Origin: Candidatus Peregrinibacteria bacterium CG10_big_fil_rev_8_21_14_0_10_36_19
GTDB lineage: Bacteria > Patescibacteriota > Gracilibacteria > UBA1369 > LOWO2-01-FULL-3
Assembly: GCA_002772535.1 (NCBI GenBank)
Contig: PFDP01000013.1
Span: 1-37,318, forward strand
Direction: 5' to 3'
Length of the DNA stretch: 37,318 bases
Below the pieces are notes generated by a model. The model was not told the DNA's origin and made no database searches. It worked only from the letters and a program-made list of their open reading frames with translations. Position numbers and translations under genes: made by a program. Each line of letters opens with the position of its first letter. Position 1 is the stretch's first letter. Shown here piece by piece: positions 26,637 to 30,789 of this stretch.

Positions 26637-27042
26637 GGGGATGTATTGGTATTCGATAGGATGGTTTTAAGTGCAGTATGTTGCAGTTCAGGGGTTGCTC
26701 TGTCCCCCTGTAGATCCGTCAGAGCAAATTAAGTGCTAATAACACTGTTTCTGAGCAAAACTACAAATACGCTTTTGCGCGTGTGCCAGCTTTTGCTTAA
26801 TTTCCGACTTTTTTCGGAATCGTTCATACTTGGGATATCTGCTAGCTTGTATGGGCGTAATTTAGCGGGTTAAGGTTTTATACTTTCTTCTAGGGTATAG
26901 AGCTCGAAAATTTTTTAGAATAAGCGATGTTGTTTTTTGTTTTTCCTTTATGCCATCGACGAAAATTTTAGGAAAAAATATAACTGTAGAAGCTACTCCA
27001 CTTCATCTCTACACCCGGGTTCGACTCCCGGCATCTCCACCA
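26637..27042 (+). ncRNA. ssrA: Transfer-messenger RNA (one-piece)
   Basis: Rescues stalled ribosomes and tags the unfinished protein. The 406-base RNA has acceptor strands GGGGATG (26637-26643) and CATCTCC (27032-27038) that pair with the G.U at the third position typical of alanine charging. It has a T arm CCGGG-TTCGACT-CCCGG (27015-27031) and an encoded CCA (27040-27042). The reading frame that best fits starts at GCT (26735) and stops at TAA (26798), encoding a 21-residue tag that starts ANNTVSEQNY and ends ARVPAFA. The resume codon is inferred from the usual Ala-Asn start. A hairpin TTCCGA/TCGGAA lies just after the tag stop. The order is that of the one-piece form, not permuted. Confidence 0.95.
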
Positions 27043-27136: not shown

Positions 27137-27358
27137 ATGAGTGTTGAAAAAATTATTGGTGAGCTTTCTACTGATGAAAGGTTGGTTTACGAGTTTTTGA
27201 GAATAAATGGAAGAAAGGTTGTTGATATTAGTGATAGATTAAGAAAGCTTTTACTTAACGCTGGGGCGCTTTTAGAAAAAGATGGTGTAACAACGGTAAA
27301 TAATGAAGTTTGTGAATCTATTAGGAGCGTGCTTGCTTTTAGAGGGTATACTTCTTAA
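27137..27358 (+). CDS. Small protein of unknown function
   Basis: A 73-residue protein not recognised. It is highly charged and predicted to be mostly helical (SVEKIIGELSTDERLVYEFL, then a second helix DISDRLRKLLLNAGALL), with a short strand-like segment GVTTVNNEVC and a third helix. The pattern of three short helices and a hairpin is reminiscent of a small winged-helix or DNA-binding fold but no motif proves this. It lies after the tmRNA terminator and 60 bases before the sigma-like gene, whose promoter follows it directly. No good Shine-Dalgarno sequence precedes the ATG. Codon use matches its neighbours, so it is probably real. Confidence 0.55.
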   Translation: MSVEKIIGELSTDERLVYEFLRINGRKVVDISDRLRKLLLNAGALLEKDGVTTVNNEVCESIRSVLAFRGYTS

Positions 27359-27369
27359 AGGTGGTTTTG

Positions 27370-27397
27370 TTGACAAAGTGTGTAAAAATGCTATAAA
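27370..27397 (+). promoter_or_regulatory. Promoter of the sigma-TM fusion gene
   Basis: Perfect -35 TTGACA (27370-27375), 16 bases, TATAAA (27392-27397). Transcription would start near 27404, about 15 bases before the ATG, with AAGG seven bases before the start codon as a possible ribosome binding site. Confidence 0.7.
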
Positions 27398-27418
27398 GAA
27401 TACCTTTAAGGTAACTTT

Positions 27419-28669
27419 ATGGATTTGTACGCAGAAAGACAATGTGTTGACGCAATGAAAGCGGGTGAAACCTCAAAGTTTCTACTGCTTTTTGAGGATA
27501 ATTTTGAGGAAGTTTACAAATATGTGGCTAGGCGTGTTGATAATAATGAGGAGGTTGAAAGAATTATTAGATTGGTTTTTTTAGATGGATTGGGTCAGAT
27601 ACAAAATACTCCTTCGGATGTGAGTTATTTGGTTTGGCTTTTTAGTTTGGGGAGGCCGCGCGTGGCGGACTATTTGGCGAAGCAGAGTATGCCTAGTGCG
27701 CGCGGGTTGATTTCTAAAACTAATAATGACGAGGTTTTAGGTGATTACGAAAAATTTGAAAAAGTTCTTTCTAAATTGAGCTTGGAAGAAAGAGAAATTT
27801 TGAGATTAAAGTTTTTTGAACAAGTTACTGATGGTGATGTGATGACAATACTTGGTTTTGAAGAAGGTGTTGTTGGAACTAAAATTTATAGAGTTTTAAA
27901 GAGGGCACATTTTCTTTTGTTTGGTGAAGCCGATGATCAACAAGGAATTTATTTTGGAGAGTTGAGTAGTTTTTTTGAAAGAGTTAGAGAGGCGGAATTT
28001 GTTGAGGTTCCTGAGGCTTTTAAGTTGAGCTTGAGGGCGGATTTGAATAGTAGAATTGAGAGAAAAGGGTTTGCTATGGAGGCTGAGGCAGAAGTTGTAC
28101 AAGAGGAAGTGCCTTTAAAAGAAACTGTTTATAGAGAAAATGTTGGGTCAGATGATCCTGCAAAAGTTTTTGTTGATGCTGTAAAAGAAATGAGAAGTGA
28201 AGGTGTTGATCCTAATGAATTCTTTATGGAGGCTATGGAAATGAAACAAGCAGCTGCGGAAATGTTTGATAAATGGAAAATTGCTTTAGTGGCGATACCT
28301 GCTTTGATTTTTATAACTGTTATTGGTTTTGTTGCTTATAAGTTGGCTGGGCTTGGAGGGGTGGACGATTCTAAACTTGTACAAAGAGGATATCCAACAA
28401 ATTGTAATTTTGCCGTTGATTATAAAGATGGTATTGCTGATGGTATAAGAAGAAGTTTAGATGCAGAGGTTGCTAATAAAATTTGTGATTATTTTGCCCC
28501 TAAAGGTTTAGCTGTTTTGAAACTTGATGATGGGGGAGTAACAGTGGATGTAGATTTAGAATCTAGCTTGATAAAATACCAGTTTGTGAGAGATACTAGA
28601 TTACAAATTTGGAGGATAATAAAATATGCAAAAACTGCTAATAGCAACGAGCAATCCAGGGAAGTTTAA
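27419..28669 (+). CDS. ECF-sigma-like protein fused to a transmembrane and outer domain
   Basis: A 416-residue protein. Residues about 15-65 resemble sigma region 2 (GETSKFLLLFEDNFEEVYKY, then VERIIRLVFLDGL). Residues 114-168 are a clear region 4 helix-turn-helix (LSKLSLEEREILRLKFFEQV, then GFEEGVVGTKIYRVLKRA). A linker follows, with VPEAFKLSLRADL (197-209) recalling the short motif of anti-sigma proteins and an acidic stretch, then one membrane helix (287-309) and an outer domain of about 105 residues with two Cys (329, 356) that could pair. A free sigma factor has no such tail, so it is either a membrane-held sigma released by a signal or a sigma-derived regulator. It overlaps rdgB by 44 bases. 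No separate anti-sigma gene adjoins it. Confidence 0.8.
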   Translation: MDLYAERQCVDAMKAGETSKFLLLFEDNFEEVYKYVARRVDNNEEVERIIRLVFLDGLGQIQNTPSDVSYLVWLFSLGRPRVADYLAKQSMPSARGLISKTNNDEVLGDYEKFEKVLSKLSLEEREILRLKFFEQVTDGDVMTILGFEEGVVGTKIYRVLKRAHFLLFGEADDQQGIYFGELSSFFERVREAEFVEVPEAFKLSLRADLNSRIERKGFAMEAEAEVVQEEVPLKETVYRENVGSDDPAKVFVDAVKEMRSEGVDPNEFFMEAMEMKQAAAEMFDKWKIALVAIPALIFITVIGFVAYKLAGLGGVDDSKLVQRGYPTNCNFAVDYKDGIADGIRRSLDAEVANKICDYFAPKGLAVLKLDDGGVTVDVDLESSLIKYQFVRDTRLQIWRIIKYAKTANSNEQSREV

Positions 28670-29222
28670 TGAAATTATGGAGGTAATCTCCGATCTACCT
28701 TTTGAGTTTTTATCTTTAAAAGATGTTGAGGTTGATTATTCGGATCTCAAAGAAGATGGAGAGTCTTTTTATGAAAACTCTTTTATTAAGGCTAAATATT
28801 TTAGAGATAAAACCGGTTATCTAACACTAGCAGAAGATTCTGGAATTTTGGTTGATGCACTTACTGGAGAGCTTGGTGTAAAAACTCGTAGGTGGGGAGC
28901 TGGAGAGAACGCTAGTGATGATGAGTGGATGAGTTTTTTCATGGAAAGGATGATGAATGAGGAGAATAGAGCTGCAAGTTTTGTTTGTAATGCCTGTGTT
29001 TTAGGAAATGATTATAGAGAGCATTTTGAGGGTGAAACAAAAGGTGTTTTGATGAAAGAAATTATGGCACCAATTATTCCAGGAATACCATTAAGCTCAT
29101 GTTTTGTGGCAGAAGGTTGCGATAAAGTATATGCGTTAATGAACGAAGCGGAAAAAAATATGGTAAGCCATAGGGGAAAGGCTATGCATAAATTAAAAGT
29201 TTTTTTACAATCTATAGCTTAG
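28626..29222 (+). CDS. rdgB: XTP/dITP diphosphatase (RdgB/HAM1 family)
   Basis: Removes non-canonical purine nucleotides (XTP, dITP) from the pool by releasing pyrophosphate. The 198 residues include the opening LLIATSNPGKFNEI, the metal-binding TLAEDSGILVDAL (Asp71), GVKTRRWGAG and the C-terminal SHRGKAMHKL. These are the family blocks, although the substrate segment (SLSSCFVAEG) is divergent from the common F-x-YDP-x-F form, so specificity may differ. The long overlap with the preceding gene (44 bases) indicates one transcript. Its end overlaps the convergent O-methyltransferase by 18 bases. Confidence 0.88.
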   Translation: MQKLLIATSNPGKFNEIMEVISDLPFEFLSLKDVEVDYSDLKEDGESFYENSFIKAKYFRDKTGYLTLAEDSGILVDALTGELGVKTRRWGAGENASDDEWMSFFMERMMNEENRAASFVCNACVLGNDYREHFEGETKGVLMKEIMAPIIPGIPLSSCFVAEGCDKVYALMNEAEKNMVSHRGKAMHKLKVFLQSIA

Positions 29223-29775: not shown

Positions 29776-30789
29776 TTAGTCTCTAATAAGTTTTCTTGCC
29801 ACTATAACAGTTAATAGTGACATCAGAATTGCCCCTATTAGAGCTTCTGTAGCAGCAATATATCTCATTGCCCCAATTGCATGATAATCGCCGTAACCAA
29901 GTGTTGTGAAGGTTACAATGCTAAAATAAATAGAGGTTGAGAGTGATGGTGTGATTACTTGGCTTTGGTACACCAAACTGTTGTGATGTGTAAAAAGCAA
30001 TGCACAAACAAATACAGTTATTGATGACGCTAAAAGAACGTTTATAAATGATGTTCCATACTTACATAATAAATCTCCAAAGATGTAATTTAACCATCTT
30101 GTTGGCTTGTACCACTCAATATCTTTTCTTTTTGCCACCATTTCTTTGTAGTGGTAGTAGTCACCAAGTGTGTGTAAACTTGAGTTTCTGAACATCTCTT
30201 TGATTTGTTTATATTCAATTGCTGCAAAGTGATAGTTTTTTTCTTTTTCTGATTTAAGCTCTGATCCAAAAGTACTTTTTTGGTCAATAAAAGCAGTGGA
30301 TGCAGACATGTCTTTAATTGTAGCGTCTGTAAAATTACAATCTATAATTTTGGCATTATTTATATTTAGCCCACTACAATCAGATTCTTGAAAGTAACAA
30401 TTACTAATTGTGGCACCTTTAAAATCTGCATGTGTTAAATCTGCATCTTCAAAGTAACAATCATGAATTTTTCCTTCTTGGAAATTGCAGTGTTTGAGAT
30501 TTGCTCCTTCAAAATGTATTTCTGAAAGAATGGCTAAATCTTCAATGTAGCCATTATCATCTTCTTTTACTGGGATTCTAAAATCAAAACCCATTAAAGT
30601 TGCTCCACGAAGATCAATTCCGTTTCTTACCTCTTCATCATTGATTCCAGGGAAGTTTTGGACTTTTTGTCTAAACAGAACAGGGCTGAGGTAGCAACGA
30701 GAGGATTTAATTACTTTTATTAGCTTCTTTCCTTTTGTTGTTAACCACCTGTTTTGTAGTTTTTCTAGCTTTTCTTTTGAATATAACAT
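29776..30789 (-). CDS. Potassium channel with pentapeptide-repeat cytoplasmic domain
   Basis: A 337-residue two-helix ion channel. Residues 90-165 are pentapeptide repeats (A/x-D/N-F/L-x-x pattern as in ANLKHCNFQEGKIHDCYFED), forming a right-handed beta-helix. Residues 188-228 are a conserved helical linker. TM1 is about 246-266, the pore loop 284-301 carries the potassium filter TTLGYGD (295-301) and TM2 is about 307-330. Four subunits would make one pore, with the repeats on the cytoplasmic side, perhaps as a sensing or assembly domain. The gene has an excellent promoter six bases before its ATG and follows the PBP gene. Confidence 0.92.
   Translation of the reverse strand: MLYSKEKLEKLQNRWLTTKGKKLIKVIKSSRCYLSPVLFRQKVQNFPGINDEEVRNGIDLRGATLMGFDFRIPVKEDDNGYIEDLAILSEIHFEGANLKHCNFQEGKIHDCYFEDADLTHADFKGATISNCYFQESDCSGLNINNAKIIDCNFTDATIKDMSASTAFIDQKSTFGSELKSEKEKNYHFAAIEYKQIKEMFRNSSLHTLGDYYHYKEMVAKRKDIEWYKPTRWLNYIFGDLLCKYGTSFINVLLASSITVFVCALLFTHHNSLVYQSQVITPSLSTSIYFSIVTFTTLGYGDYHAIGAMRYIAATEALIGAILMSLLTVIVARKLIRD

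Follow-up and report, generated by a model that had tools for sequence, protein, structure and literature searches.

Some ECF sigma factors are encoded in one polypeptide with their anti-sigma factor. IutY of Pseudomonas putida (ECF243) is built in this way (PMC5411451, PMC8999054), and its sigma part is freed by cleavage with Prc and RseP (PMC5411451). Further sigma/anti-sigma fusions are the actinobacterial ECF52 (SCO4117), ECF48 and ECF53 (PMC8999054, PMC5826349). BldN and RsbN (6dxo) are two separate proteins; two helices of the anti-sigma factor bind sigma region 4 and a third binds regions 2.1 and 2.2 (PMC7406223, where the names of the two proteins are interchanged), and RsbN is membrane-anchored (PMC8103513). 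In alphaproteobacteria, PhyR contains a closed sigma-derived domain and binds the anti-sigma factor NepR. PhyR is a soluble protein that carries a receiver domain.

The stretch of DNA analysed here (the window, 37,318 nucleotides) encodes a protein that invites comparison with these systems (Table 1). It resembles IutY in possessing an N-terminal ECF sigma part and a C-terminal membrane anti-sigma part with an outer domain, and resembles ECF52, ECF48 and ECF53 in combining an ECF sigma part, a C-terminal anti-sigma-like part and a membrane helix. The sequence-only reading had mentioned that some groups possess ECF proteins with C-terminal membrane parts. IutY differs in its TonB-receptor cell-surface signalling and its active sigma, whereas the protein studied here has an altered region 2 and an outer domain that the searches made could assign to no known family. 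The zinc finger, proline-rich stretch and carbohydrate-binding domain of ECF52 were not detected, and Pfam, with matches admitted up to E=10, shows no zinc-finger family in the 416-amino-acid protein. Unlike BldN and RsbN it forms a single chain, and the solved-structure searches, made with a 20-ortholog profile and with the single full-length sequence, returned no match to RsbN. It shares with PhyR a sigma-derived domain, modelled here in closed form, but has no receiver domain among its Pfam matches and contains the anti-sigma part in the same chain.

Table 1. Features of the fused gene and its surroundings (positions in the window)
Feature	Positions	Strand	Basis or remark
ssrA (tmRNA)	26637..27042	+	upstream neighbour, also upstream in split locus L115
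Promoter: TTGACA 27370-27375, 16-base spacer, TATAAA 27392-27397, CCTTT 27403-27407	27370..27407	+	pattern
Whole fused sigma/anti-sigma gene, 416 aa, ATG start	27419..28669	+	ORF translation, orthologs
Sigma region 2, residues 4-92, altered	27428..27694	+	profile, alignment, model comparison
Sigma region 4, residues 111-170, most constrained part	27749..27928	+	profile, alignment, dN/dS
Anti-sigma-like helices, residues 175-224	27941..28090	+	homology to the N-terminal part of the stand-alone membrane protein whose gene follows the split ECF genes
Linker motif G-S-(D/N)-D-P-A-K-(I/V)-F-V, residues 243-260	28145..28198	+	ortholog alignment
Membrane helix, about residues 287-309	28277..28345	+	model, hydropathy
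Outer alpha/beta domain, residues 331-407	28409..28639	+	one helix and four-strand sheet in model
rdgB-type gene (XTP/dITP pyrophosphatase, by eye)	28626..29222	+	downstream neighbour kept in fused and several split loci
44-base overlap, fused gene end and rdgB start	28626..28669	+	

The sigma-like nature of the N-terminal half, proposed from the sequence as regions 2 and 4, is borne out by several comparisons. Residues 10-161 match the NCBIfam model TIGR02952 of BldN-type ECF sigma factors with E=5.7e-18, which lies below the curated cut-off of that model, and the 20-ortholog profile matches among solved structures the ECF sigma 6in7_B (2.7e-11) and BldN (6dxo_A, 5.4e-11), BldN also being the closest solved sigma in the single-sequence PDB search. 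Pfam gives a Sigma70_r4_2 match of E=0.0058 for the 416-amino-acid protein, below the cut-off, and does not report Sigma70_r2 for it, in keeping with the earlier impression that region 2 is the weaker of the two. Regions 2 and 4 are thus recognized by both profile and fold, as in ECF (group 4) sigma factors, though at values that do not reach the curated cut-offs.

In the predicted structure (pTM 0.53), residues 3-170 superpose on SigW/RsiW with Z 14.3 (154 residues, 3.7 A) and on CnrH/CnrY with Z 13.4. Regions 2 and 4 are modelled closed against each other as in SigW/RsiW, CnrH/CnrY and RpoE/NepR (Z 13.3-14.3, 3.5-4.0 A, about 154 residues). ECF sigma factors bound to RNA polymerase fit the model region by region at 3-4 A, but both regions together only at 21-27 A. 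Structures of PhyR align to it with Z 8-10.

For the second half, the earlier reading of a linker, a single membrane helix and a two-cysteine outer domain holds. The sole hydrophobic segment (Kyte-Doolittle mean 2.78 over residues 288-306) recurs as a single peak in all 25 orthologs checked by Kyte-Doolittle, consistent with one helix between inner and outer parts, and the two cysteines of the outer domain are nearly invariant across the family, being missing in L053 and L054. Homology, hydropathy and the model together suggest that the sigma half lies on the inner side of the membrane together with two anti-sigma helices, and that the alpha/beta domain is on the outer side. For this outer domain the model shows one helix and four main strands (pLDDT about 90). 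It had not been recognised from the sequence, and it matches no known Pfam family; when its fold was searched by itself, Foldseek returned nothing below E=0.001. Assignment to a known family was rejected, the fold matches (Z 6.3 at best, with NTF2-like, cystatin-like and VirB8-like folds among them) being too weak to name.

The C-terminal half has relatives that are encoded as separate proteins. Outside the source family, the closest counterparts within the order are ECF sigma factors of canonical type, encoded alone and each followed directly by a separate membrane-protein gene (hereafter split loci). A profile of the fused C-terminal halves was searched against all six frames of 163 kb. In 16 split loci it matches the ORF that directly follows the sigma gene (E<=0.0073), and the best unrelated ORF has 0.6; the exceptions are L116, with a weak match (0.065), L103, which ends at a contig edge, and L117, which is itself fused. 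As in a fusion of the IutY type, the C-terminal half thus corresponds by homology to a membrane protein that elsewhere stands alone beside a sigma gene, as the 16 split loci and, among unfused loci, the syntenic L115 show. No Pfam family matches the separate partner; its position, its membrane helix and the closed model of the fused protein suggest that it is an anti-sigma factor. The split pairs of the order (most of L101-L119) are homologous to both halves of the fused protein, share its promoter pattern and in several cases lie near rdgB; they differ in consisting of two genes, in having canonical sigma residues, usually in a long low-complexity outer linker, and in lacking the linker motif described below.

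Gene order in the window is dnaN-mfd-ssrA-fused gene-rdgB, where the names dnaN, mfd and rdgB were given from sequence by eye. Locus L115 of family f5 has the order dnaN-mfd-ssrA-sigma-antisigma-rdgB, unfused and with other genes between these landmarks, and its sigma and anti-sigma ORFs overlap by 11 bases; the order sigma-antisigma-rdgB is found in L109 and others. The homologous separate partner in sister families, the unfused L115 locus and the common promoter pattern identify the gene as a sigma/anti-sigma fusion, and it is well supported that an ECF sigma gene and the membrane anti-sigma gene immediately following it were joined to give this gene. The observation that no anti-sigma gene adjoins the gene holds for its neighbours, because the anti-sigma part is the C-terminal half of the same protein; the idea that the partner is missing was rejected on the ground of this homology.

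In the phylogenetic tree, the fused form of the source family (f1) constitutes one clade (97/97) and groups with family f14, while L115 is unplaced. The join of f1 and f14 is unsure, since long branches meet there. Family f14 (L117, L149-L153) also possesses fusions of sigma-like and membrane parts, 372-466 amino acids long and near rdgB, whose region 2 diverges strongly and in which the linker motif was not found; this fusion beside rdgB may be a second, separate case.

By pattern, 21 of 25 fused loci have a promoter of housekeeping type in which the -10 element is closely followed by CC(C/T)TT or a similar sequence. The same arrangement, TTGAC, spacer, ATAA-like -10 and CC(C/T)TT, is common to the fused form and most split sigma/anti-sigma loci. 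An ECF-type autoregulatory promoter was not noticed at the fused gene. Conservation of CC(C/T)TT after the -10 element at this promoter extends over at least three families, fused and split, and a hand count found it in 2 of 13 comparable matches elsewhere. At the other end of the gene, many orthologs overlap rdgB by about 30-40 bases. This overlap probably accounts for the conservation of the C-terminal tail, as the last 14 codons overlie the conserved start of rdgB in another frame.

Some other features of the neighbourhood were recorded. Between ssrA and the fused gene lies a small ORF of 73 amino acids (27137-27358), for which tblastn gave no matches in related loci at 1e-5. The tag peptide ASLYGRNLAG given by ARAGORN for the tmRNA (26637-27042) looks miscalled; an alternative frame gives ANNTVSEQNYKYAFARVPAFA*, which resembles the tags of relatives such as L041. 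Positions 29776-30789 encode, as judged by eye, a pentapeptide-repeat-like N-terminus and a two-helix segment with a K+-channel-like filter, TTLGYGD.

Orthologs are present in 25 of the 30 genomes of the source family (Candidatus Peregrinibacteria), a few of them cut by contig ends. In the remaining five, whose completeness is 79-89%, the gene was not found; rdgB is missing from them too, and the absence may therefore be an assembly gap. Named relatives are mostly Candidatus Peregrinibacteria, the others being Peribacteria, Gracilibacteria and a few records under other names, and no close full-length relatives were found on plasmids. Orthologs share 34-53% identity, and dN/dS is about 0.06-0.14 over the gene, indicating strong purifying selection, although several of the synonymous distances are near saturation. 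The lowest values of the gene, 0.01-0.04, are those of region 4. With orthologs at this identity and dN/dS well below 1, the ORF is not a product of chance.

The sigma half was compared residue by residue between 25 fused proteins and 18 split partners plus 12 other ECF sigma factors of the order, along with BldN and SigH. The protein of the window has R48, R51, L52, P80 and R81 where split relatives have D, S, Q, N and N. Position 48 is D or E in 30 of 30 other ECF sigma factors and K or R in 20 of 25 fused proteins; position 51 changes from S to R or K in the fused form; position 52 is Q in 18 of 18 split proteins and L in 24 of 25 fused ones; position 80 is N in all 30 other ECF sigma factors and P in 22 of the 25; position 81 changes from N to R; and position 87, R in all 18 split proteins, is mostly A, N or S. 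The start of the recognition helix is acidic (EE) in the fused form. Nearly all fused orthologs lack the set D48, Q/E52 and N80 of ECF sigma factors. Positions 48-52 are taken to serve core binding and position 80 the -10 contact (sigma regions 2.2 and 2.4). These family-wide replacements agree with the loss of core binding by region 2 that the sequence-only reading thought possible, and they suggest, as read from the sequence, that core or promoter binding may be lost. A second, canonical ECF sigma factor, followed by the gene of a large FecR-like membrane protein (L120:1-6947, G000 contig C3), was found in the f1 genomes examined; the copy in the genome that carries the fused gene of the window keeps D and N.

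The linker between the anti-sigma helices and the membrane contains the motif G-S-(D/N)-D-P-A-K-(I/V)-F, in which S244, D246, P247, A248, K249 and F251 are invariant in the fused family. This DPAK motif was not found in the split partners, and the linker that carries it is modelled at low confidence. By analogy with the third helix of RsbN, it could be guessed that a DPAK helix binds the altered region 2.

Taken together, the protein is read, with a probability of about 0.5, as a switch that derives from a sigma factor, is held in the membrane and locks itself, and has given up ordinary promoter selection. At rest, according to the model, the anti-sigma helices would hold regions 2 and 4 closed in the anti-sigma-bound shape. 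The outer domain would read a signal from outside, upon which the inner part would be opened or released by a change in shape or, by analogy, by site-1 and site-2 proteolysis. The inner part would then bind a protein partner as a sigma look-alike, in a manner resembling PhyR; an anti-sigma helix or some portion of RNA polymerase are examples. It is most likely no ordinary promoter-selecting sigma factor, given that the family-wide changes affect those positions of region 2 that are taken to bind core and to contact the -10 element. The fuller claim, that the whole family consists of membrane-bound pseudo-sigma factors that have lost both promoter and core contacts, are permanently fused to their own anti-sigma factor and signal as look-alikes, has slightly less than an even chance. 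Against a look-alike, there is strong conservation of region 4 and of the fold, both of which a working sigma factor would require; the closed shape comes from a prediction of the protein by itself, with the pTM given above; and a search for a partner of such a look-alike found none.

The main rival is a membrane-tethered working ECF sigma factor like IutY, in which site-1 and then site-2 cleavage upon a signal would free the sigma half to drive its own regulon with altered contacts. The architecture is that of IutY, similarity to ECF sigma factors is clear overall, region 4 is the most constrained part, and the genome encodes candidate proteases, namely a member of the M50 (site-2 protease) family and two HtrA-like Trypsin_2 proteins. 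This is a serious but less probable alternative, as the near-invariant ECF residues of region 2 are lost family-wide yet retained in the FecR-paired ECF of the same genome, the recognition helix opens with the acidic EE, and the gene's own promoter is of housekeeping type, with no autoregulatory one noticed; the residue changes are the reason for preferring the look-alike. The earlier proposal that a signal frees the sigma part is rendered plausible by the IutY analogy and the candidate proteases, but the altered residues lower the odds that the freed part selects promoters as an ordinary sigma factor does. Alternatively, the anti-sigma helices may be parked on a built-in look-alike and, upon a signal, leave it to inhibit a genuine ECF sigma factor elsewhere in the cell, or the reverse. 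The modelled closed shape, the second canonical ECF with its FecR-like partner and the precedent of PhyR for sigma mimicry speak for such a partner switch, which is nevertheless unlikely, that other ECF already having an adjacent membrane partner. A decaying, functionless remnant of a sigma/anti-sigma pair would account for a region 2 under the Pfam threshold. This reading was rejected as very improbable, being contradicted by purifying selection: long open frames are kept in the 25 genomes, the linker motif is invariant, and the new residues of the sigma half are conserved, which together with the dN/dS values indicates that its change is not decay.

Sigma/anti-sigma fusion as such is already known from IutY and ECF48, ECF52 and ECF53, and a literature search found no ECF fusion described in Peregrinibacteria or Patescibacteria. 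Within the searches made, five things have no precedent: the lineage, the split relatives that can be seen beside the fusion, the changed region 2, the DPAK motif and the outer domain. Few groups are known to have sigma and anti-sigma factor fused; in this order the fused form can be set against unfused relatives and against an unfused locus with the same gene order, so that the steps of fusion can be followed. If the sigma half of the switch is indeed a look-alike, nature would have reached sigma mimicry by one more route in addition to that of PhyR.
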